From the NCBI RefSeq assembly GCF_023657595.1, contig NZ_CP098323.1, positions 4,240,001 through 4,304,000 of the forward strand: a DNA stretch of 64,000 bases, in the 5' to 3' direction. The notes beneath the pieces are model-generated. The model saw nothing but the letters and a program-made list of their open reading frames with translations, was not told where the DNA came from and did not search any database. Below are positions 770 to 60,405 of the stretch, piece by piece. The stretch comes from Cytobacillus firmus. Its GTDB lineage: Bacteria; Bacillota; Bacilli; Bacillales; Cytobacillaceae. The position numbers and the translations under genes are program-made. Every line of letters begins with the position of its first letter. Within the stretch, counting starts at the first letter, position 1.

Positions 770-1057
770 ATGGACGATAAAGAAAGACGCACATACACCG
801 ACTTCTCAAATGTGGAAACCCAAAGGAATTTCCTGATTCCCGAGGACTTGCCTGAAGGGGCATATGGCGCTCCCAGAAATGCGGATGAACCGGTAGAGAA
901 TAAAAGCACCCCATGGCGGGAGGGCCAGCGCTATTACAGCGCCTTTAACTATGAGTTCAAGTCCCTTCACCAAAACTTGCCGCGGCAAATGCCAGGTGCG
1001 CACCCTCCGCATGACGATCCTGATAAAAACGAAGAACCGCCATACACAGAGACTTAA
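770..1057 (+). CDS. Small hydrophilic conserved Bacillaceae protein
   Basis: A 95-residue soluble protein rich in Pro, Asp, Glu and Asn, with no membrane segment. AAGGAGTG at 757-764 precedes the ATG at good spacing. I do not recognise a characterised family, though the motif ENKSTPWREGQRYYSAFNYE looks like a conserved core. Similar proteins in related genomes tend to be labelled simply as cytosolic protein (from memory). It is convergent with yutD and shares the terminator at 1073-1103. Function unknown. Confidence 0.65.
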   Translation: MDDKERRTYTDFSNVETQRNFLIPEDLPEGAYGAPRNADEPVENKSTPWREGQRYYSAFNYEFKSLHQNLPRQMPGAHPPHDDPDKNEEPPYTET

Positions 1058-1072
1058 GCAAGGCGCATGCGC

Positions 1073-1103
1073 AAAAAGGGCCGGGTTTCCCCTGCCCTTT
1101 TTA
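1073..1103. terminator. Bidirectional terminator between convergent genes
   Basis: A perfect nine-base stem, AAAAAGGGC at 1073-1081 with GCCCTTTTT at 1094-1102, has A/T runs on both sides. It overlaps the last codon of yutD, so it can stop transcripts from both directions. Confidence 0.8.
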
Positions 1104-1376
1104 GCTTTTAACTTTTTTCACAACAAAATAGGCACAGCCGAAATTACAGAACTCGTAAAGGTATTCTGTAAGTGTGCTGATTTTTGTATCAAATGAAGCC
1201 TTCTGGCTCTGATCATCGAAAAAACCGCGGAGACGAAGCTGTCCATATCCCCAGTCCCCGACAATATAGTCATATCTGGATAAAATTTCGCTATATCTGG
1301 CCCGGAATGCCTCCTCGTTGAAACCATCCCGTTCTTCCTGGATCAATTCATAACTGATATTGTTAATGCTAACCAA
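1101..1376 (-). CDS. yutD: YutD, DUF1027 family protein
   Basis: A 91-residue protein closely resembling B. subtilis YutD (DUF1027) from memory, including EEAFRARYSEILSRYDYIVG and CNFGCAYFV near the C-terminus. The molecular role is unknown. The start is chosen as TTG at 1374-1376: GAGGTG at 1383-1388 lies six bases upstream, while the in-frame GTG at 1383-1385 is part of that Shine-Dalgarno. With this start the protein begins MVSINNISYEL, which lines up with the B. subtilis N-terminus. It is divergent from the YhcN/YlaJ lipoprotein gene. Confidence 0.85.
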   Translation of the reverse strand: MVSINNISYELIQEERDGFNEEAFRARYSEILSRYDYIVGDWGYGQLRLRGFFDDQSQKASFDTKISTLTEYLYEFCNFGCAYFVVKKVKS

Positions 1377-1544
1377 TTTTTTCACCTCATTTTAAGAGCA
1401 TATGTAACAGTATTATATTGAAAATAACATGATATGAAAACAAACCAATATTTTGTCTTTATTTAAATTATAACTGATTCCCCATCAATTACTAAGAGAA
1501 AAAAATTTAGACGTGGCAACTCTATAAATGAGGAGGTGTTAATA

Positions 1545-2231
1545 GTGAAGAAATCACTAATCATTCTTGGCATTAGCGGCATGGCTGCACTGACTGCCTG
1601 CCAAAATAATGCCGCAAAAGAAGATATCTATGAAGAAACCGGTCATACCGTAAATGTAAATGACCAGCGTGCTGATTTATACAATAGGGATATGGGCAAC
1701 GGCCAAAACGGCCGAAACAATATGGGTGAAGACTTTGGCTATGTACGCCATCAAAAAAGCCCAATTATGGGAGACAACGTTTCAGCAGACCACTATGCTG
1801 CCATTGACCGTGAACAGGTTGCAGATATTATCGGGAAATATTGCACAGAAGTTCCGAATGTGGACGATATTTCAACTCTTGTTACAGATGAAGAAGTCCT
1901 GATTGTATATAATACTGACACAAAAAACCGAAATCAGACAGCTGATCAGGTCAAGAAGATGGCTATGTCTGTTGTCCCAAGATGGTATCATGTCTATGTA
2001 AGTGATGATACCTCTTTAAGGAAAAATGTTGAGAACTATGCAACAGTGGACTCTGATGGACGTAATGCTGAAAATGGCATTAACCAGTTAATCAAACAAA
2101 TGCTTAAATCTCCTCAAGGAGAAAGAATGAGTGAAAGTGAAAATGAAAACGGTGAAATGCAAGGCGAAAGAAACGATGATATGGATAAAGATGATCTTGG
2201 AGAAACCGTCAAAAAAGCAGGAAACCGGTAA
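1545..2231 (+). CDS. yutC: YhcN/YlaJ family sporulation lipoprotein (YutC position)
   Basis: A 228-residue exported lipoprotein. The N-terminus MKKSLIILGISGMAALTAC is a signal peptide ending in a lipobox with Cys19. The middle and C-terminal part (roughly residues 80-190) matches the Spore_YhcN_YlaJ family, including a stretch beginning HYAAIDREQVADII; a highly charged Glu/Asn/Met-rich tail follows. Family members are spore-associated lipoproteins. The position between yutD and lipA corresponds to yutC in B. subtilis. The start is GTG 1545-1547, behind AGGAGGTG at 1531-1538; the upstream in-frame GTG at 1536 overlaps that site. Confidence 0.8.
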   Translation: MKKSLIILGISGMAALTACQNNAAKEDIYEETGHTVNVNDQRADLYNRDMGNGQNGRNNMGEDFGYVRHQKSPIMGDNVSADHYAAIDREQVADIIGKYCTEVPNVDDISTLVTDEEVLIVYNTDTKNRNQTADQVKKMAMSVVPRWYHVYVSDDTSLRKNVENYATVDSDGRNAENGINQLIKQMLKSPQGERMSESENENGEMQGERNDDMDKDDLGETVKKAGNR

Positions 2232-2266
2232 CAGGAAAGTTTCCTCCCCAGAAAACCTTTTCAAAG

Positions 2267-2300
2267 AAGAGAGTCCAGCGATGGCGCTGGACTCTTTTTA
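2267..2300. terminator. Bidirectional terminator between yutC-like gene and lipA
   Basis: GAGTCCAGC at 2271-2279 pairs with GCTGGACTC at 2286-2294. It is flanked by an A-rich stretch on one side and TTTTTAATTT on the other. Confidence 0.85.
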
Positions 2301-2302
2301 AT

Positions 2303-3220
2303 TTATGCTTGCTGAATTTCCTTTTCTCCCATAATCTGCTTTTGTTTAGCTGCCGCATTTACCTGCTCATCAGCATGGTAGGAAGATCGGACAAGAGGAC
2401 CTGCTTCACAATGGCTGAATCCTTTGCTCATTGCAATGTCCTTCAGCTCCTGGAATTCTTCAGGTGAATAATACTTCAGCACTTTAATATGTTTCTTGGA
2501 TGGCTGCAGGTACTGCCCTATTGTCATAATGTCAACATCATGAGCACGCAAATCATCCATTACTGCAATGATTTCCTCTTTCGTTTCACCAAGCCCGATC
2601 ATCAGGCTGGATTTTGTAGGGATATCCGGCTGCATTTCTTTTGCACGCTTTAAAAATTCAAGAGAGCGCTTATATTTCGCACGTGCTCTTACTCTTGGAG
2701 TCAGGCGCTCAACAGTTTCGATATTGTGATTAAGGATATCGGGACGGGCATCCATAAGTGTTTTCAGGTTTTCATAAACACCGCCCATGTCGGAAGGCAA
2801 TACTTCAATGGTAGTAAACGGACTTTTTCTTCTGATGGCACGAACTGTTTCTGCGAAAACAGCTGCACCTCCGTCCTTTAGATCATCTCTTGCTACAGCT
2901 GTTACAACAGCATGCTTTAAGTTCATAAGAGCCACGGAATCAGCAACGCGTTCCGGCTCCTGAAGATCCAGTTCAGTAGGCAGGCCCGTTTTGACAGCAC
3001 AGAAACGGCAGGCACGTGTACAAACATCGCCAAGAATCATAAACGTAGCCGTTCTTCTTACTGCCCAGCATTCATGAATATTGGGGCATTTAGCTTCTTC
3101 ACATACAGTGTGCAGATTCTTTTCCCTCATCATTTTTTTTAGGCCAGTATAATTTTCATTTGTGTTCAACTTTATTTTCAGCCATTCCGGCTTGCGCAAA
3201 TACTCTTCTTTCTTGCTCAT
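2303..3220 (-). CDS. lipA: Lipoyl synthase LipA
   Basis: A radical-SAM enzyme that inserts two sulphurs into octanoyl groups on E2/GcvH-type proteins to make lipoyl cofactors. The 305-residue product is close to B. subtilis LipA (298 aa). The auxiliary cluster cysteines CX4CX5C are C40, C45 and C51. The radical-SAM CX3CX2C cysteines are C67, C71 and C74 (CTRACRFC). The C-terminal RSSYHAD motif is present. ATG 3218-3220 is preferred, with AAGGAG eight bases upstream; the longer GTG start overlaps the Shine-Dalgarno. Its acceptor GcvH and the suf cluster-assembly genes are encoded elsewhere in this window. Confidence 0.97.
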
Positions 3221-3252
3221 TTTTCCCACTCCTTAATCTGAAGCTAGACGTA

Positions 3253-3322
3253 AAGAAAAGCGCAAGCGCCCTTGTCCGCCACTCCCGAAACATCGAGGGG
3301 GCTACGCTGCTTGAGCTAGACC
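3253..3322 (+). repeat. Short copy of the dispersed mosaic repeat
   Basis: The segment begins AAAGAAAAGCGCAAGCGCC and ends TGAGCTAGACC. The same ends bound the larger copies at 39891-40163 and 59967-60335. This copy lacks the internal TCGTGCGATG hairpin module. It lies in the 316-base gap between lipA and lytH, where nothing else is evident. Confidence 0.65.
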
Positions 3323-3536
3323 ATTTTTCTGACTTCAGAATTTATACTTTCTGCCCATTAAAAAAGCCAGTCATACAATTCCGACTAAGCTGATTAGGCT
3401 TCACCTGATGCCACTTTATCATAATGAATTGAAGAGGACAAGCCGAAGATTCTGGTATTACCATTAATTGATATTTATTAAATTATCCATTCATCACAAA
3501 CTATATAAGCAGACCATCACAGAAGGGAGGATTTCC

Positions 3537-4529
3537 GTGCGTATTATATTTACCGCTGCTGCGGCCTTATCGTTTTTTCTGATTTCCTTATGCACCGTCA
3601 GTGCGCAAGAAAATGCAGCTGATATATATAAACAAAGAATGGCCTTATATAAAAGAGTAGAAGCTGTTACGAACATTCCCTGGTATTACCTTGCGGGGAT
3701 TGACCAATATGAAAGGAATGTCCGGCAGTCAAGAAGAGACATTCCCAAGGCTGAAGGCATAACAGGAATCTATTTTAAACCTGAAGAATGGGCGGGAATT
3801 CTGAATCCGGATCCAGCTGATGAAAACCCTGCATCCATTCAATTTTTCAATGGAATAGGATTTGACGGGGACGGGGACGGTAAAGCCAGCTTGAAAAGTG
3901 ATGAAGATGTTCTTCATTCCTTTGCAAATTTCCTTCTCTCCTATGGTACAGACCATGATAATTTAAAAATTGGATTGTGGAATTATTATAAGCGGGATAA
4001 AGCTGTTGGCATTGTCATCGGCAAAGCCCAAATTTATAAACAATTCGGCCGCCTTGATCTCGATGATCATGCCTTCCCCGTCCCCTTGAGGAGCAATTAC
4101 AGCTACAGAAATACCTGGGGTGACGCAAGGGGCTGGGGCGGCAGACGGATTCATGAGGGAACCGATATTTTTGCTGATTACGGGGTACCCGTCCGGGCTA
4201 CCTCCTATGGAATAGTGGAAATGAAGGGCTGGAACAAATATGGAGGATGGAGAATTGGCATCCGTGACATTAATAACAATTACCATTATTTTGCCCACTT
4301 AAGCGGGTTTGCCAAGGAGCTCAGAGTCGGCCAAATCGTCGAACCCGGCATGATGATAGGCGGAGTAGGAAGCTCCGGATATGGGCCTCCGGGTACATCA
4401 GGCAAATTCCCGCCACATCTTCATTATGGCATCTACAAAGACAACGGCTATACTGAATGGTCCTACGATCCATATCCACACTTAAGATTATGGGAAAGAC
4501 AGGAACGGATTAAAGCCAGAAGAAAATAA
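3537..4529 (+). CDS. lytH: LytH-type M23 peptidoglycan endopeptidase
   Basis: A 330-residue secreted peptidase resembling B. subtilis LytH/YunA, an L-Ala-D-Glu endopeptidase that removes peptide side chains during spore cortex maturation. A signal peptide covers residues 1-23 (ending TVSA). The M23/LytM zinc motifs are HEGTD (H206, D210) and HLH (H294, H296). The start is GTG 3537, behind AGAAGGGAGG at 3521-3530; upstream in-frame codons have no ribosome site. The gene lies next to lipA as in B. subtilis. Sporulation-stage expression is expected from the family, but I did not identify a sporulation promoter. Confidence 0.9.
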   Translation: MRIIFTAAAALSFFLISLCTVSAQENAADIYKQRMALYKRVEAVTNIPWYYLAGIDQYERNVRQSRRDIPKAEGITGIYFKPEEWAGILNPDPADENPASIQFFNGIGFDGDGDGKASLKSDEDVLHSFANFLLSYGTDHDNLKIGLWNYYKRDKAVGIVIGKAQIYKQFGRLDLDDHAFPVPLRSNYSYRNTWGDARGWGGRRIHEGTDIFADYGVPVRATSYGIVEMKGWNKYGGWRIGIRDINNNYHYFAHLSGFAKELRVGQIVEPGMMIGGVGSSGYGPPGTSGKFPPHLHYGIYKDNGYTEWSYDPYPHLRLWERQERIKARRK

Positions 4530-4570
4530 ATGAAGGACTGCCCATTAGCCAGGCAGTCCTTCATTTATTA
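4528..4570. terminator. Strong terminator between lytH and metS
   Basis: A 15-base perfect stem (4528-4542 with 4552-4566) is followed by an AT-rich tail. It sits between convergent genes and overlaps the final codons of lytH and the stop region of metS. Confidence 0.85.
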
Positions 4571-4675
4571 TTTAGCTTTTTTTGCTTTGGACACAGCATT
4601 CATGATACTTGCTGCAAGGCCGCCCCAGATAATGAGCATCCCAACCACCATCATTGTAATTGCACTTATAGACAT
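4568..4675 (-). CDS. metS: MetS-type small subunit of an NSS transporter
   Basis: A 35-residue single-span membrane peptide, MSISAITMMVVGMLIIWGG then a Lys-rich tail. It fits the methionine/alanine importer small-subunit family first described as MetS, which accompanies an NSS symporter. AAGGAGGT lies inside the upstream gene at suitable spacing, and the start overlaps the symporter stop in a TAATG junction, implying translational coupling. The partner and probable substrates are inferred from the family. Confidence 0.85.
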   Translation of the reverse strand: MSISAITMMVVGMLIIWGGLAASIMNAVSKAKKAK

Positions 4676-6192
4676 TATTGAGATACCTCCTTATCAGCTG
4701 GTATTGTAAGCTTAGTCTGTGTATCATTCTTTTTAATAGCCATAAACACAAATCCTAAGATAATGGCTCCAATTGCTACTCCCCATCCGGATAAGAGAAG
4801 AAAGCTGGTAGGATACCCTTCATAATTCTCTTTAATATTCGTAATAATGTTTTGAACCATCATATAGCCAAGCACGATTGGTGTAATAGCTGTCAAGCAT
4901 ATCTTCCACCAGGAACCAAGTCTTATATCAGAAACAGCATCTGCATGATTTTGAAGATTCTTGAGCTCTTTTAGCACCCAGCCAACAATAACAACCTGTA
5001 CCAGGCCTGCTAACGCAACACCAAATTGGTTGATAAAGTAATCAGCCGCATCCAGGAAGTATAAACCGCCCTGAGTCGCAAAAAGTATGGAAATTACAGC
5101 AGATAAACCGCCGCCAACAAGAACAGCTTTATTACGAGATACATTAAACTTATCCTGTACACCGGCAACAAATGTTTCAACAATTGAGATTAACGACGTT
5201 AAGCCAGCCAGTGTTAAACAGATGAAGAAGAAAGAACCGAATAAGCCATTTAAAGCAGGGAATTCGTTAATGATCTGCGGGAATACAACGAATGCCAATC
5301 CCACACCTGATGATACTACCTCATTAATGCCTACACCCTGCTGTGCAGCCATAAATCCAAGTGCCGCAAAAACACCGATACCAGCAAGAAGTTCAAAACC
5401 GGAGTTTGCAAAGCCGGTAATGAAGGCGCTGTTTGTCAAATCCGTTTTCTTTGGAAGGTAGCTTGAATAGGTTACCATGATGGCAAATCCAATTGATAAG
5501 CTAAAGAAAATCTGGCCGTAGGCCGCTACCCAGACTTTAGGATCCGCTATCATTTCCCAGTTTGGCTTAAAGAATGCATCCAAACCAGCAATAGCTCCGT
5601 CGAGTGTCAATGCGCGAACAACAATAATTAAGAATAAAACTACAAGGACAGGAATAAAAATTTTGTTCGCGATTTCGATACCTTTTTTGATCCCTTTAAA
5701 CAGGATTCCAAGCGTCACAACCCAAACAATAACTAATGGTATAAATACTCCTGGTACAATTCCGCCTACATCTCCAGGCGTTTCTGCAAGCTTTAAATAT
5801 TCTCCAAAGAGGAATCCATTTGGATCGTCACCCCATTTAAGGTTAAACGAGAAGCCTGCAAATGACATTGCCCATGCGATGATAACTGCATAATATGTTG
5901 AAATCACAAATGAAATGGCGACCTGCCACCAGCCCAGCCATTCGTATTTTTTACTTAATCTTGCATAAGACAATGGCGCTGATCCGCGATACTTATGGCC
6001 AATTGTAAATTCCATGATCAAAAGCGGAATACCTGCTGTCAGCAAGGCAAACAAATATGGAAAAAAGAATGCTCCCCCTCCATTTTCATAAGCAACTGCC
6101 GGGAAACGCCAAATGTTTCCTAGACCAATTGCTGAACCCACGGCTGCCATAATAAACCCAGCTCTGGATCCCCACTGCGGACGATTATCCAT
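4675..6192 (-). CDS. NSS family Na+-dependent amino-acid symporter
   Basis: A 505-residue polytopic protein with about 12 membrane segments. The N-terminal signature MAAVGSAIGLGNIWRFP is typical of the neurotransmitter:sodium symporter family (unwound TM1 with Na+/substrate ligands). The gene is translationally coupled to metS, so the pair probably imports methionine, alanine or related neutral amino acids, as MetPS does in Corynebacterium; substrate choice is inference. No SAM riboswitch precedes it, unlike the other methionine genes here. The ribosome site before the ATG is a weak GGGGG. Confidence 0.88.
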   Translation of the reverse strand: MDNRPQWGSRAGFIMAAVGSAIGLGNIWRFPAVAYENGGGAFFFPYLFALLTAGIPLLIMEFTIGHKYRGSAPLSYARLSKKYEWLGWWQVAISFVISTYYAVIIAWAMSFAGFSFNLKWGDDPNGFLFGEYLKLAETPGDVGGIVPGVFIPLVIVWVVTLGILFKGIKKGIEIANKIFIPVLVVLFLIIVVRALTLDGAIAGLDAFFKPNWEMIADPKVWVAAYGQIFFSLSIGFAIMVTYSSYLPKKTDLTNSAFITGFANSGFELLAGIGVFAALGFMAAQQGVGINEVVSSGVGLAFVVFPQIINEFPALNGLFGSFFFICLTLAGLTSLISIVETFVAGVQDKFNVSRNKAVLVGGGLSAVISILFATQGGLYFLDAADYFINQFGVALAGLVQVVIVGWVLKELKNLQNHADAVSDIRLGSWWKICLTAITPIVLGYMMVQNIITNIKENYEGYPTSFLLLSGWGVAIGAIILGFVFMAIKKNDTQTKLTIPADKEVSQ

Positions 6193-9296: not shown

Positions 9297-9570
9297 AAAA
9301 AAAGAGTAACGATAGAGAAAAATCTATCATTACTCTTTTGAAGTAATTAGTTTCTCCATCACGATCTGTAGCTCCCCATTATGATGGGCTTTGACAAAGT
9401 ATATTCATACTTTCCCCTCATAATGACAGTGTTACTCCTATTCGAAGTAACCCCAGCATGATTAGTTTTGACTCACTAATTCTGCTTCGGCAACATTCCC
9501 TTTCGGCTGCGGTCGTCGTTGTCATCCTCACACAGCGTACTTTTGAATCCTGCACCTCTACCCCATCGGA
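9297..9570 (-). promoter_or_regulatory. Lysine riboswitch (L box) with terminator
   Basis: Read on the minus strand, the leader contains the L-box core blocks GGTAGAGGTGC (around 9551-9562), AAAGTACG, CAGCCGAAAGGG, GTTGCCGAAGC and CTGGGGTTAC. A P1 helix can form between CGAT..GTAG (around 9561-9568) and CTAC..ATCG (around 9361-9370). A strong terminator follows: a stem built on AGAGTAATGATAGA / TCTATCGTTACTCT at 9297-9340, then a T run. High lysine should favour termination and switch the carrier off (inference from the class). Confidence 0.9.
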
Positions 9571-10380: not shown

Positions 10381-10469
10381 AACAAATCCCCCCTTTACAA
10401 GCTATATGTATGCTGTAAAGGAGGGAACTAGGCTCAAAAATTTAAAATAGTTTATCGCAGTCTAACGGA

Positions 10470-10660
10470 CAGTAAGAAGGACAAAGACTAAGAACGCCAC
10501 ATCCTCCCAAAAGCTGCCGCTTTCGGTCGTGCGATGTATCGCTGCCGTAGCTTTCCTTGTCCTGTGGCAACGTCTTTGTGACCCACTTCCTCCCAAAAGC
10601 TGACGCATTTGGTCGTGCGATGCTCATGCTGACGAAGCCTTCCTTGTCATGTGGGCCTCA
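10470..10660 (+). repeat. Mosaic dispersed repeat, two hairpin modules without outer ends
   Basis: Two tandem modules occur here. Each has CCTCCCAAAAGC, a short loop, a pairing arm and the invariant TCGTGCGATG: hairpins at 10507-10526 and 10593-10612, invariant blocks at 10527-10536 and 10613-10622. The flanks GACTAAGAACGCCAC and GACGAAGCCTTCCTTG are shared with the copies at 39.9 and 60.0 kb. The AGAAAAGCG and GGAGCTAGAC ends are missing. One pair in each hairpin is mismatched, suggesting decay. Nothing else is evident in this 330-base gap. Confidence 0.75.
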
Positions 10661-10710
10661 ACTATCAATCAGTGGGGGATAAGAAAAGCCCCACTGAAGA
10701 AAGTTTCACT

Positions 10711-11805
10711 TTATTGTTGTACTAAAGTCGTATCACAGCCTGTAATAACAGAATTCAATTCAAGCCCTAAATCCGCTTCATAGGGCTCCACATTCCTGCC
10801 CTTTTCTTCAAGTATGCGGATGACAGGCCTGTCGCTGAGACCCGGATTCTGCCGGCAGACAACACCTTTTCTTCCGTCATTCAGCTCGACTGTAACACCA
10901 ACTGGATACACGGCAACCGCCTGCCGGAAAACTTCAATGACTTTCTTATCAAATAATTTTCCGGCCCCTGCATACAGAACTTCCAGGCCTTCATGCGGGA
11001 GCATAGCCTGTCTGTAAATGCGGTTGGATGTTACTGCGTCAAACACATCGGCAATCGCAATTATCTTGCCGAATTCATGAATCTCCTTCCCCTGCAGGCC
11101 GCGCGGATAGCCTGAACCATTTAATCTCTCATGATGCTGAAAGGCGCAATGCGCAACGAGGAGAGGGATCGTCTCTACCTTTCTTAATATATTAAATCCA
11201 TCTTCCGGATGCTTCTTTATTGATTCAAATTCGTCCTCTGTCAATTTACCCGGTTTCATAAGAATATCTGCAGGCACCTTCATCTTTCCGACATCATGAA
11301 GAATAGCACCCAGCCCCAGGATTTCAAGTTCCTTTGGCAGGAGCTGAAGCTTCATCCCGATTGCCAGTGAATACAGAGTTACATTCAGGGAGTGTGTGAA
11401 GATATAGTGATCATATGTATAAACATCTGATAGGATCGTAAGAAGCTCTTTATTTCCCCTTATTTCAATGAGTAGCTGACGTATCAGCCCTGAGAGCCGC
11501 TTGGAGGCATTCTCAATTACCAGAGAGCCTGATAACTCTTTATTTGCTTGTACTTCCTTCAGAACGGTTTCAATGGTTTCGATAGCCTGTTTGCGCATTT
11601 TGGGAGTCAGAGGGTCCTTATATTGGATATCCTCAGTGCGCAAATCCTTAATATACACATAGGTAATACCCATTTCCTGCAGTTTATGTATTAATTTATC
11701 AGCCAGCTCCACACCTTCTTGCAAAAGGACCTGACCCTTGTCATTATATATAGCTTTGGCCAAAACACTGCCAGTCTCAATTGTATTGGTTGCTGCTAAT
11801 CTCAT
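10711..11805 (-). CDS. HD-GYP domain phosphodiesterase (putative c-di-GMP hydrolase)
   Basis: A 364-residue cytosolic protein without membrane segments. The HD-GYP domain spans roughly residues 125-300, with metal-binding HD at H170-D171 (LHDVGK) and the extended HHERLNGSGYP motif at 224-234. These domains hydrolyse cyclic di-GMP to pGpG or GMP. All motif residues look intact, so activity is likely. N-terminal residues 1-60 resemble a small DUF3391-like region often fused to HD-GYP. GGGAGATATAT precedes the ATG. It is not part of the B. subtilis yun order, so it is an addition here. Confidence 0.9.
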   Translation of the reverse strand: MRLAATNTIETGSVLAKAIYNDKGQVLLQEGVELADKLIHKLQEMGITYVYIKDLRTEDIQYKDPLTPKMRKQAIETIETVLKEVQANKELSGSLVIENASKRLSGLIRQLLIEIRGNKELLTILSDVYTYDHYIFTHSLNVTLYSLAIGMKLQLLPKELEILGLGAILHDVGKMKVPADILMKPGKLTEDEFESIKKHPEDGFNILRKVETIPLLVAHCAFQHHERLNGSGYPRGLQGKEIHEFGKIIAIADVFDAVTSNRIYRQAMLPHEGLEVLYAGAGKLFDKKVIEVFRQAVAVYPVGVTVELNDGRKGVVCRQNPGLSDRPVIRILEEKGRNVEPYEADLGLELNSVITGCDTTLVQQ

Positions 11806-27134: not shown

Positions 27135-27292
27135 AAAATGCCTTTCTGCACATGAGCAGAAAGGCATAAAAAAATTTAGTCCTTTCTCTCATCTATCAAA
27201 GCTATGCTTTGAGTGAATTGGCACCATTTCAACTAATTGACGGTTGCCGGGCTTCATAGGGCACTTCCCTCCACCTCTCTTGATAAGAGTGT
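27135..27292 (-). promoter_or_regulatory. SAM-I riboswitch (S box) controlling metNPQ
   Basis: The minus strand reads CTTATCAAGAGAGGTGGAGG, then CCCGGCAACC and, further on, GATGAGAGAAAGG. This is followed by a perfect terminator hairpin (ATGCCTTTCTGC / GCAGAAAGGCAT, about 27135-27169) with a T run. All class-defining S-box blocks are present. SAM binding should cause termination. Confidence 0.96.
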
Positions 27293-28797: not shown

Positions 28798-28932
28798 AAA
28801 CCCTCTTCATAAGAAGAGGGCTTTATCGACTCTTCTTATCTTCCAGAGCATTCTGCTCTGCTGGATTTAGCACCGTGTACTTTACCGGTTGCCGGGCTTC
28901 GCTGGGCCAGTCCCTCCGCCTCTCTTGATAAG
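28798..28932 (-). promoter_or_regulatory. SAM-I riboswitch (S box) controlling metY
   Basis: On the minus strand CTTATCAAGAGAGGCGGAGG, AAGCCCGGCAACC and a closing segment are followed by the terminator CCCTCTTC / GAAGAGGG with a T run (about 28798-28826). It parallels the copy in front of metNPQ. Confidence 0.95.
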
Positions 28933-28961
28933 AATATTCAGTTAATTAATATTAAAACGAT

Positions 28962-39543: not shown

Positions 39544-39891
39544 ATGAACCAGAACCAGAATCCAAATACGATTCAAAATCCCGAAACACAGGTGAATAAA
39601 ACACCGCAAATGAATGAGCGGGACTTTACAAATGATATTCTGACTACTGAAAAGTATATGACAGATGCCTATTCGGTTGCCTTAAATGAGGCAAGCCACC
39701 AGAGCCTGTATCAGGATATTCTTGCGGCATTTAATGAAACACAAAACCAGCAAAGAGAATTCTATAACCTAATGTTCAAAAAAGGCTGGTATAAGGTTGA
39801 AGCCGCAGACCAGCAAAAACTCCAGCAATCTTATCAGCAGTTCCAGGGCTATACGAATCAATTGCCTTATGGCAATGGCCAGATGCAATAA
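39544..39891 (+). CDS. CotF-family spore coat protein
   Basis: A 115-residue protein of the coat F family (helical, ferritin-like), with FTNDILTTEKYMTDAYSVAL and FYNLMFKKGWYKVEAADQQ. The Asn/Gln-rich N-terminus is typical of coat proteins. ATG 39544 lies eight bases after AGGAAGGAG; the TTG six bases earlier is too close to that site. Its stop codon TAA is shared with the first bases of the mosaic repeat at 39891. Confidence 0.85.
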   Translation: MNQNQNPNTIQNPETQVNKTPQMNERDFTNDILTTEKYMTDAYSVALNEASHQSLYQDILAAFNETQNQQREFYNLMFKKGWYKVEAADQQKLQQSYQQFQGYTNQLPYGNGQMQ

Positions 39892-40163
39892 GAAAAGCGG
39901 AAGCGCCTTGTCCCCGAAGGAACGCAGACTAAGAACGCCACGTCCTCCCAAAAGCTACCGCTTTTGGTCGTGCGATGGTTATGCTGACGAAGCCTTCCTT
40001 GTCCTGCGGGCCTCAGGCATAAGACGGTTCCTGGAAGAAGGCGTTCTTCCTTCTGCAAGGAAACGGCTTATGACCTCGATGGGGTAGGCGCTCCTCCTAA
40101 AAGCTAACGCTTTTAGTCGTGCGATGATGATGCTGTCGAAGTGTTCCTTGTGGAGCTAGACAA
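39891..40163 (+). repeat. Mosaic dispersed repeat, full copy with two hairpin modules
   Basis: The copy is bounded by AGAAAAGCGGAAGCGCC and GGAGCTAGAC. It contains two modules, hairpins 39948-39967 and 40097-40116, each followed by TCGTGCGATG (39968-39977, 40117-40126). A larger stem-loop with CATAAG / CTTATG ends lies between (about 40018-40074). GCGCC near the left end can pair with GGCGC near 40087-40091. The element starts at the stop codon of the preceding gene. Apart from the terminator at 40186-40224, nothing else is seen in the gap. Confidence 0.85.
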
Positions 40164-40185
40164 TTATCGAATTTGCAATATGCTT

Positions 40186-40224
40186 AAAAAAACCGCTGCT
40201 TTTGATGGCAGCGGTTTTTTTAAA
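40186..40224. terminator. Terminator between repeat copy and yusU
   Basis: AAAACCGCTGC and GCAGCGGTTTT form a strong stem, with A and T runs on the two sides. Confidence 0.85.
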
Positions 40225-59835: not shown

Positions 59836-59967
59836 ATGACAAAGAAGTTCAATAAAGGCAGCAATAATCAAAATTCACCAAGAGGGAATCAATCCCCGAT
59901 CAGCGGTGATAACAGCAAAGGCAATAAGAGGAATAAAGATCAAAAGGATAAGACTGATTTGGATTAA
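59836..59967 (+). CDS. Small Asn/Lys-rich spore-like peptide
   Basis: A 43-residue hydrophilic peptide (MTKKFNKGSNNQNSPRGNQS) rich in Asn, Lys, Gly, Asp and Ser, with AGAAAGGAG eight bases before ATG 59836. Composition resembles small acid-soluble spore proteins, but no named family can be assigned. Its TAA stop lies at the first bases of the mosaic repeat at 59967. It is a lone plus-strand gene among minus-strand neighbours. Confidence 0.6.
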   Translation: MTKKFNKGSNNQNSPRGNQSPISGDNSKGNKRNKDQKDKTDLD

Positions 59968-60335
59968 GAAAAGCGCAAGGCGCCCGCCTACCTAGGAACG
60001 CAGACTAAAACCGCCACGTCCTGTGGCAACGTCTGCATGACCCGCATCCTCCCAAAAGCTGTCGCTTTTGGTCGTGCGATGTTTATGCTGACGAAGCCTT
60101 TCTTGTCCTGCGGGCCTCAAGCATAAGACAAGCCGGCTGAAAGGTTGTTCTTTAACCTTTAGGACGGATTGAAAGAAATGTTGAGGCGACTGCCCAGGGA
60201 CGACCAGCATAAGACGTTCCCTGTAAGAAGGTGTTTTTTCCTTCTGGAAGGGAGCGGCTTATGACCTCGAGTCCCTAGGAGCCGAAACAAGACAAGCTTA
60301 TGACCTCGAGCCGATGGCGCCTGGAGCTAGACAGT
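59967..60335 (+). repeat. Mosaic dispersed repeat, longest copy
   Basis: The copy is bounded by AGAAAAGCGCAAGGCGCC and GGAGCTAGAC. It has one hairpin module (60052-60071), then TCGTGCGATG (60072-60081). A larger stem-loop spans 60208-60263 (CATAAG / CTTATG ends, with AGGGAC and GTCCCT outside). GCTTATGACCTCGA is seen twice (around 60257 and 60298). It starts at the stop codon of the 43-aa peptide. Apart from the hairpin at 60373-60405, nothing else is in the gap. Confidence 0.85.
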
Positions 60336-60372
60336 TATCGAAGTTCAAAGTTATACTTTTTAATCTTTTAAA

Positions 60373-60405
60373 AGAAAACCGGCTTCCTTATCGAAGCCGG
60401 TTTCT
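60373..60405. terminator. Terminator between repeat and 70-aa gene
   Basis: AAACCGGCTTC and GAAGCCGGTTT form an 11-base stem with a T-rich tail. Confidence 0.85.

Follow-up and report, generated by a model that had tools for sequence, protein, structure and literature searches.

What kind of repeat lies directly behind cotF in Cytobacillus firmus, and why do its small hairpins stay paired? The DNA analysed here is one stretch of 64,000 nt (the window), in which an earlier note had pointed out five hairpin modules and argued for a mosaic repeat under selection for structure. The modules, at 10507-10526, 10593-10612, 39948-39967, 40097-40116 and 60052-60071, were all recovered as exact matches on one strand, with TCGTGCGATG directly after each. 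The reading that we consider probable is a three-level composite, non-autonomous mobile repeat in which the fold is kept and the modules are passengers. At the first level, outer elements of two families, A and B, would insert in trans beside gene ends, with B making a TTTAT target duplication and A often landing downstream of a stop codon and upstream of a terminator. Both would carry, at the second level, a cassette of the RNA family Bacillaceae-1 (Rfam RF01690), and at the third level a module of ~58 nt would sit exactly in a UCCU hairpin loop, or in the loop at the 3' end of A. In kind this is a composite MITE/BOX-like non-autonomous repeat, and its unusual property is the nesting of loop within loop.

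A module in the loops of Bacillaceae-1

Within the window, when one mismatch is allowed, the motif has five matches where 1.79 would be expected; a count of five was reached in 5 of 100 shuffles. Over the genome, a 19-mer on the motif found 40 places at up to two mismatches, against none for the reversed pattern. The TCGTGCGATG block, which had been taken as invariant, is constant within the window but varies elsewhere (CCGTGCGATG, TCGTGCAATG). The repeat unit is longer than the hairpin: it spans ~58-59 nt, from the base after one TCCT through a second TCCT, in the layout TCCT, hairpin, TCGTGCGATG...TTCCTTGTCCT. A covariance model (R1) was built from an alignment (A1) of 44 distinct copies, that is, 44 of the 45 listed, with the palindromic copy at L006 omitted. 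The model matched 111 places in the genome at an E value of at most 1, 66 of them with at least 45 bits. The proposed search of relatives with such a model also bore fruit: the module was found in 48 of 101 genomes, this one included, although the filters used lose weak matches, and in 31 of the 36 genomes of the same genus by count of the matches listed. Copies spread in this way over genome and genus rule out a single recent segmental duplication as the explanation. The omitted copy, near G000:C1:1535082 in this genome, has the module hairpin with inverted TCGTGCGATG on both sides, forming a long near-perfect palindrome.

The three elements of the window resolve into the following features.

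10451 to 10455, no strand: target duplication TTTAT, left (sequence and orthologue comparison)
10456 to 10709, plus strand: outer element of Family B, partly deleted, with a Bacillaceae-1 cassette; the orthologous site in a relative (L307 in G010) has no element
10473 to 10655, plus strand: Bacillaceae-1 cassette with both loops filled by modules (RF01690 match 10473-10591, 35.9 bits)
10506 to 10563, plus strand: module 1, 58 nt, in the hairpin-1 loop, between TCCT at 10502-10505 and TCCT at 10560-10563
10592 to 10650, plus strand: module 2, 59 nt, in the hairpin-2 loop with CCCAC/GTGGG as closing stem; TCAT has replaced the right TCCT
10710 to 10714, no strand: target duplication TTTAT, right (sequence and orthologue comparison)
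39891 to 40185, plus strand: outer element of Family A, right end approximate, directly after the cotF stop codon (39889-39891)
39916 to 40010, plus strand: rearranged Bacillaceae-1, in which one module links hairpin 1, left half (GCCAC), to hairpin 2, right half (GCGGG)
39947 to 40005, plus strand: module of 59 nt at the fusion point; TCCT at 39943-39946 precedes it and TCCT at 40002-40005 ends it
40017 to 40072, plus strand: CATAAG/CTTATG stem-loop arm of the outer element (from the sequence; paired in folds)
40090 to 40156, plus strand: 3'-end loop GCTCC/GGAGC with a module of the CTAAAAGC type (sequence and context classification)
40186 to 40223, no strand: probable bidirectional intrinsic terminator abutting the element (by eye and from hairpin alignments; a simple scan did not list it)
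59966 to 60375, plus strand: outer element of Family A, right end approximate, from the stop codon of a small ORF onward
59989 to 60114, plus strand: Bacillaceae-1 cassette with hairpin 1 open and hairpin 2 filled (RF01690 match 59989-60062, 61.2 bits)
60051 to 60109, plus strand: module, 59 nt, in the hairpin-2 loop, closed by CCCGC/GCGGG (sequence and alignment A1)

The mosaic described in the earlier note is thus real, but it was incomplete, as it missed that the flanks are Bacillaceae-1, that the module lies inside the loops of this RNA and that there are three nested levels. Host hairpins in this genome are mostly RF01690, which has 45 matches at an E value of at most 0.001, 40 of them above the family cut-off. 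The gathering threshold was passed by the elements at 60.0 kb (61.2 bits) and 10.5 kb (35.9 bits); the element at 39.9 kb, a rearranged remnant, gave no RF01690 match at E values up to 5. The cassette consists of a basal stem and two short hairpins with RUCCU loops, which are either open, as in hairpin 1 at 60.0 kb (GTCCT, 60018-60022), or filled by a module. At 10.5 kb, the match contains 59 bases inserted at loop 1, hairpin 2 was read from the sequence, and the form of module 1 recurs at other loci in alignment A1. Since the module starts right after TCCT and itself ends with TCCT, its excision would restore a standard RUCCU loop.

The same nesting is seen directly across the genome and its relatives. 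Among 137 distinct module contexts, 8 had no left TCCT and 129 were classified: 98 as UCCU loops, 21 as the 3'-end loop GCTCC/GGAGC and 10 as other. At least four of the five closing pairs formed in 85 of the 98 UCCU-loop contexts, for which shuffled partners gave a mean of 0.546 and a maximum of 0.653, and in 19 of the 21 3'-end contexts, for which shuffling gave an equal value (0.906). The UCCU-loop contexts include hairpins other than RF01690 in other species, such as GCGAC/GTCGC and CAGTC/GATTT. In a search whose filters also lose weak matches, RF01690 was present in 65 of the 101 genomes, this one included. By comparison of the lists, 24 of these 65 had no module match, several of them carrying at least 40 Bacillaceae-1 copies. 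Conversely, seven genomes had the module and no RF01690 match; three of them (G043, G054 and G070) held 24-46 copies each, and the 11 loci read there had the module in other hairpins, while the remaining four (G039, G058, G073 and G098) had one match each, some weak. Because RF01690 is distributed more widely than the module, the compact loop appears to be the commoner condition, into which the module came as a unit of its own. For the same reason, the wider spread of compact loops, the module's first entry into a UCCU loop would have been an insertion. At any single locus, the direction may have been insertion or deletion.

Bacillaceae-1 RNA reportedly goes back to Weinberg, 2010. To our knowledge, the nesting of one loop in another is unusual for bacterial repeats. 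We searched the openly licensed literature for TCGTGCGATG, GGAGCTAGACA, Bacillaceae-1, bcr1 and nested or MITE-type repeats and did not find this nesting described; the accessible portions of the Bacillaceae-1 papers hold no description of the RNA as cargo of a mobile repeat or of modules in its loops. A review ranks Bacillaceae-1 among the most abundant sRNA families and, in the portion available, leaves its function blank in a table (PMC9029176). The 74-bp Bhal-1 family of B. halodurans, likened here from an excerpt of its description, might be Bacillaceae-1 (PMC2267715). The elements of the window have the basal stem and the two RUCCU hairpins of RF01690 and are, in addition, repeat cargo with filled loops. 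If, as seems probable, many Bacillaceae-1 copies in Cytobacillus-type genomes are mobile cargo, the copy number and genomic context of this RNA have to be read differently.

Pairing and covariation of the arms

Three of the five hairpins of the window are perfectly paired, but those at 10507-10526 and 10593-10612 contain mismatches. The first has the arms CCAAAAGC/GCTTTCGG, with A.C on the plus strand and G.U on the minus strand, and the second has CCAAAAGC/GCATTTGG, with an A.A mismatch; the GCATTTGG mismatch is common to 13 of 120 distinct modules. The module at 40097 indeed has the arms CTAAAAGC/GCTTTTAG, as would follow from a compensatory change, but in this genome the pair is a subfamily trait. 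All own-genome modules listed or aligned here that have both CTAAAAGC and GCTTTTAG lie in the 3'-end loop of the outer element, and this confinement makes the pair look like a single inherited change in this genome. Two hairpin-1 copies pair CTAAAAGC with GCTTTCGG.

The stronger evidence for covariation comes from other genera. Across genera, the arms occur as CCAAAAGC/GCTTTTGG, CTAAAAGC/GCTTTTAG, TTAAAAGC/GCTTTTAA, GAAAAAGC/GCTTTTTC, GGAAAAGC/GCTTTTCC, GAAAATGC/GCATTTTC, GAAAAGGC/GCCTTTTC, CCGAAAGC/GCTTTCGG and CTATAAG/CTTATAG. For the counts, the arm register was fixed from TCCT in 203 instances, of which 24 out of register were dropped, leaving 27 distinct arm pairs. Two MAFFT alignments (A2 and A3, made from 44 of 47 rows) were excluded because of a wrongly placed gap in the 3' arm; also set aside were one further count (P1), partly out of register for a subfamily, and the row of L263, which showed a wrong stretch. 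Watson-Crick cells made up 77.3% of the 27 distinct arm pairs and 66.3% (sd 1.5) after shuffling, a value not reached in any of 1,000 shuffles, which ignore relatedness. Cells changed on both sides numbered 17 compared to 4.3 (sd 1.7), again with none of 1,000 shuffles reaching the observed count and with relatedness ignored. Double changes were seen at five pairs of the hairpin compared to 2.6 after shuffling (8 of 1,000 reached five). In the C. firmus genome alone, the covariation score exceeded all 500 shuffles, and doubly changed pairs showed no excess (3 compared to 2.2; 183 of 500 shuffles reached three). The proposed selection on a folded structure is therefore supported by the covariation of arms across genera, as measured against shuffles that ignore relatedness. 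The fold may be kept because an enzyme or a partner recognises the folded single strand, as DNA or as RNA. Pairing between TCGT and ACGA on the two sides of the second small hairpin was considered as well, but was dropped since it does not hold in the TATCGCTGCCG form.

The basal stem of Bacillaceae-1 exists within this one genome in at least five paired versions: CGCAGAC/GTCTGCA (with one C.A), CAAAGAC/GTCTTTG, CGTCAAC/GTTGACG, CATCTGC/GCAGATG and CTTCAAC/GTTGAAG. These versions, together with the several arm types that stay paired in different genera, speak against neutral debris, in which GC-rich inverted repeats would arise by slippage and gene conversion and their structure would be unselected. 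Such an origin would suit the copies that are truncated, fused or tandem and the GCATTTGG mismatch in 13 of the 120 distinct modules; we regard it as very unlikely.

Mobility of the outer elements and exchange of their cargo

Families A and B are unrelated and non-coding, and both carry the Bacillaceae-1 cassette. We placed 18 loci of the genome in nine relatives by their flanking gene ends and compared four close ones (G002, G010, G007 and G019). The orthology tally covers 17 loci (L040 was left out) and 62 of 68 possible comparisons. In 33 of the 62, none of the element marks was present, although one of these sites (L293) and, judged by its equal gap, probably another (L329) hold an inverted Family B that the mark patterns missed. 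At least one element-free relative was found at 14 of the 17 loci, or at 13 without L056, where two comparisons keep letters like the left end of A that may be deletion scars. The comparison of empty and filled sites, suggested in the earlier note, covered the Family B element at 10.5 kb: the site in G010 (L307) reads ..AATAG-TTTAT-TGTTG.., with a single TTTAT, and the own copy (L018) has TTTAT on both sides. Element-free orthologous sites and the TTTAT duplication together support the view of a dispersed mobile repeat. At the L030 site, a Family B element is present in G002 (L293) and a Family A element in the own genome, and G010 has neither.

Family B is thus a non-coding element with the target-site duplication TTTAT. 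Head-to-tail units of it in this genome are joined by one TTTAT, and its short form has 148 bp. For Family A, the stop codon of the gene to the left abuts the element at 8 of the 11 loci listed (L003, L006, L011, L017, L028, L030, L042 and L056), where a terminator-like hairpin follows, as judged by eye. The copy behind cotF, whose product is a CotF-like protein of 116 residues, is of this kind; the closest named orthologues of this one protein point to the Cytobacillus firmus/oceanisediminis group. The orthologous cotF spacers are short and without an element at L127, L130, L131, L133, L134 and L135, and hold other versions of the element at L128, L129, L132 and L153; the AAAAGC-like starts of some short spacers could be scars, to judge from their letters. 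No terminal inverted repeats of Family B were evident by eye, and with the ends of A blurred as well, a classical MITE is not proven. Among the copies listed (40 candidates scored for each family), none was a gene-sized autonomous partner. Three side observations concern these elements. In another genome (L236, G016:C4:355300-362300), fourteen head-to-tail 312-bp copies of Family A with Bacillaceae-1, 99% alike, occupy 1015-5521. A cassette of ~112 bp lies between two Family B hairpins at L353 and L354, at the place that Bacillaceae-1 takes elsewhere; spacing suggests 14 copies of it in the own genome, and two were read. Both Family A elements have promoter-like matches (TAGACA..) at the same place near their 3' ends (40157-40184 and 60328-60357), in a number expected by chance per scan.

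The cargo differs between relatives at one and the same locus. Module presence and absence were observed directly at two loci only, where loss of a module by deletion between TCCT repeats would give the same picture. L003 of the own genome has a module in hairpin 1, where its counterpart L336 (G019) reads GCCAC-GTCCT-GTGGC, and the hairpin-2 module is common to both; L022 of the own genome has a module in hairpin 2, where L291 (G002) reads CCCGC-CTCCT-GCGGG. Fusions like that at 39.9 kb are seen at L011, whose orthologue L288 has two empty hairpins, and at L320, whose orthologue L302 again has two empty hairpins and whose own-genome counterpart is the long module palindrome of L006. Whole cassettes are exchanged in place at four loci (L042/L295, L003/L300, L011/L323 and L002/L328), the relative having a short CCCCGA segment and the own genome a whole Bacillaceae-1 cassette. 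Modules and cassettes probably travel for the most part with the outer elements, and through recombination that involves dispersed copies and TCCT repeats.

Two other origins of the filled loops have to be weighed against this composite. The module could have belonged from the start to a long Bacillaceae-1 hairpin, the compact RUCCU loops being deletions between TCCT repeats. Compact loops have just the sequence that recombination between the flanking TCCT repeats would leave, and at L346, compared with L030, one TCCT is joined directly to another. We nevertheless consider this origin unlikely, given the 24 of 65 Bacillaceae-1 genomes without a module match, several of them with at least 40 copies, and the modules of G043, G054 and G070, genomes that have no RF01690 match. 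The module could also be a unit of single-strand transposition like REP or IS200/IS605 elements, with TCCT as its left and right cleavage site. This would accord with a conserved hairpin beside a short constant motif on both sides and, by sequence, with the lack of a target duplication beyond TCCT. However, the profile for the Y1 (IS200-type) transposase, PF01797, had no match in the complete genome, which holds many close copies, and in the contexts classified the module is nested in hairpin loops and not free. The Y1/REP explanation was rejected on the PF01797 result, and we hold it to be quite improbable.

The composite repeat shares features with several known systems. BOX elements of Streptococcus pneumoniae, as far as an excerpt describes them, are likewise composite, modular and strongly folded, and their internal modules vary in number (PMC3049150), but their modules stand in series (boxA-boxB-boxC), whereas here one module lies inside the loop of another. 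The bcr1 repeat of the Bacillus cereus group is likewise MITE-like and of high copy number with a TTTAT motif, a likeness taken from partial descriptions (PMC6542083, PMC3446304). Two Family B queries were compared with plasmids: one search had no match, and the other matched five records, none named as B. cereus group. A link to bcr1 thus found no support from plasmid similarity, which is not homology evidence. REP/BIME repeats with their RAYT share a hairpin with a constant flank, dispersal and a mosaic build, but differ in that no Y1 transposase (PF01797) is present in this genome.

Strand of the RNA and the CsrA question

AGGAY loops are found in sRNAs that titrate CsrA. As read from the sequence, the RUCCU loops of Bacillaceae-1 are AGGAY on the minus strand, so that one strand presents repeated GGA in hairpin loops. 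The modules keep the GGA motifs at their edges and add AAGGAA; mobile repeats would therefore distribute CsrA sites if the RNA is read from the minus strand. We consider it doubtful that the element is such a minus-strand RNA distributing candidate CsrA-binding sites, and less likely still that Bacillaceae-1 is a mobile regulatory RNA platform, with minus-strand CsrA-type GGA hairpins carried by transposable repeats. If it were, a module entering a binding loop would multiply sites, CsrA in these spore formers would be tuned by the number of copies and the filling of their loops, and upon loss of csrA the loops would decay while the element kept spreading.

Several observations agree with the minus strand. 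According to the accessible part of the RMfam paper, the reverse complement of Bacillaceae-1 fits the CsrA motif, and its discoverers were uncertain of the strand (PMC4333381). Fold z-scores were lower on the minus strand for three forms (-3.3, -4.6 and -3.4 versus -2.5, -3.2 and -1.2). Whole-element minimum energies, however, were lower on the minus strand for two of the window's elements, while the third and short B showed little difference between strands. Wobble-type cells in the arms of the 120 distinct modules comprise 46 A.C and 6 G.T on the plus strand, but 26 of the 46 A.C cells stem from one arm type, and the asymmetry vanishes when each distinct arm pair is counted once (82.4% versus 82.9%). 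Orientation relative to neighboring genes, with crude ORF calling, did not clearly favor either strand at 50 own loci (17 convergent, 16 with both genes opposed, 11 with both in the same direction and 6 divergent).

The distribution of csrA gives equally mixed evidence. The gene is present in the own genome and above the cut-off in 94 of the 101 genomes, but copy number ranges from 0 to at least 45 among csrA-bearing species. In G040 (99% complete), the sole csrA match is an S1-domain ORF, and most RF01690 matches (28 of 38) have a length of just 56-62 nt; hairpin-1 RTCCT was present in none of the 18 short copies read and in five of the eight longer ones read. We prefer these length and read counts to a pattern count for the same genome (2 of 19 contexts with the loop), which came from a sample enriched for short copies. 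The pattern in G040 agrees with the CsrA proposal, and points to an element that can multiply without its loops. In contrast, G056, a draft (94% complete) without a csrA match, keeps RTCCT in 16 of 17 contexts and disagrees. Natural variants with filled, empty, fused or missing loops make the CsrA question, as well as that of RNA or DNA, testable.

Two minor observations may be added. The window also contains minus-strand riboswitches, one for lysine (9361-9568) and two for SAM (27186-27289 and 28833-28934). In the G056 draft, which has no csrA match, Bacillaceae-1 cores are arranged in tandem with a 59-bp step from position 1501 of L367 (G056:C174).
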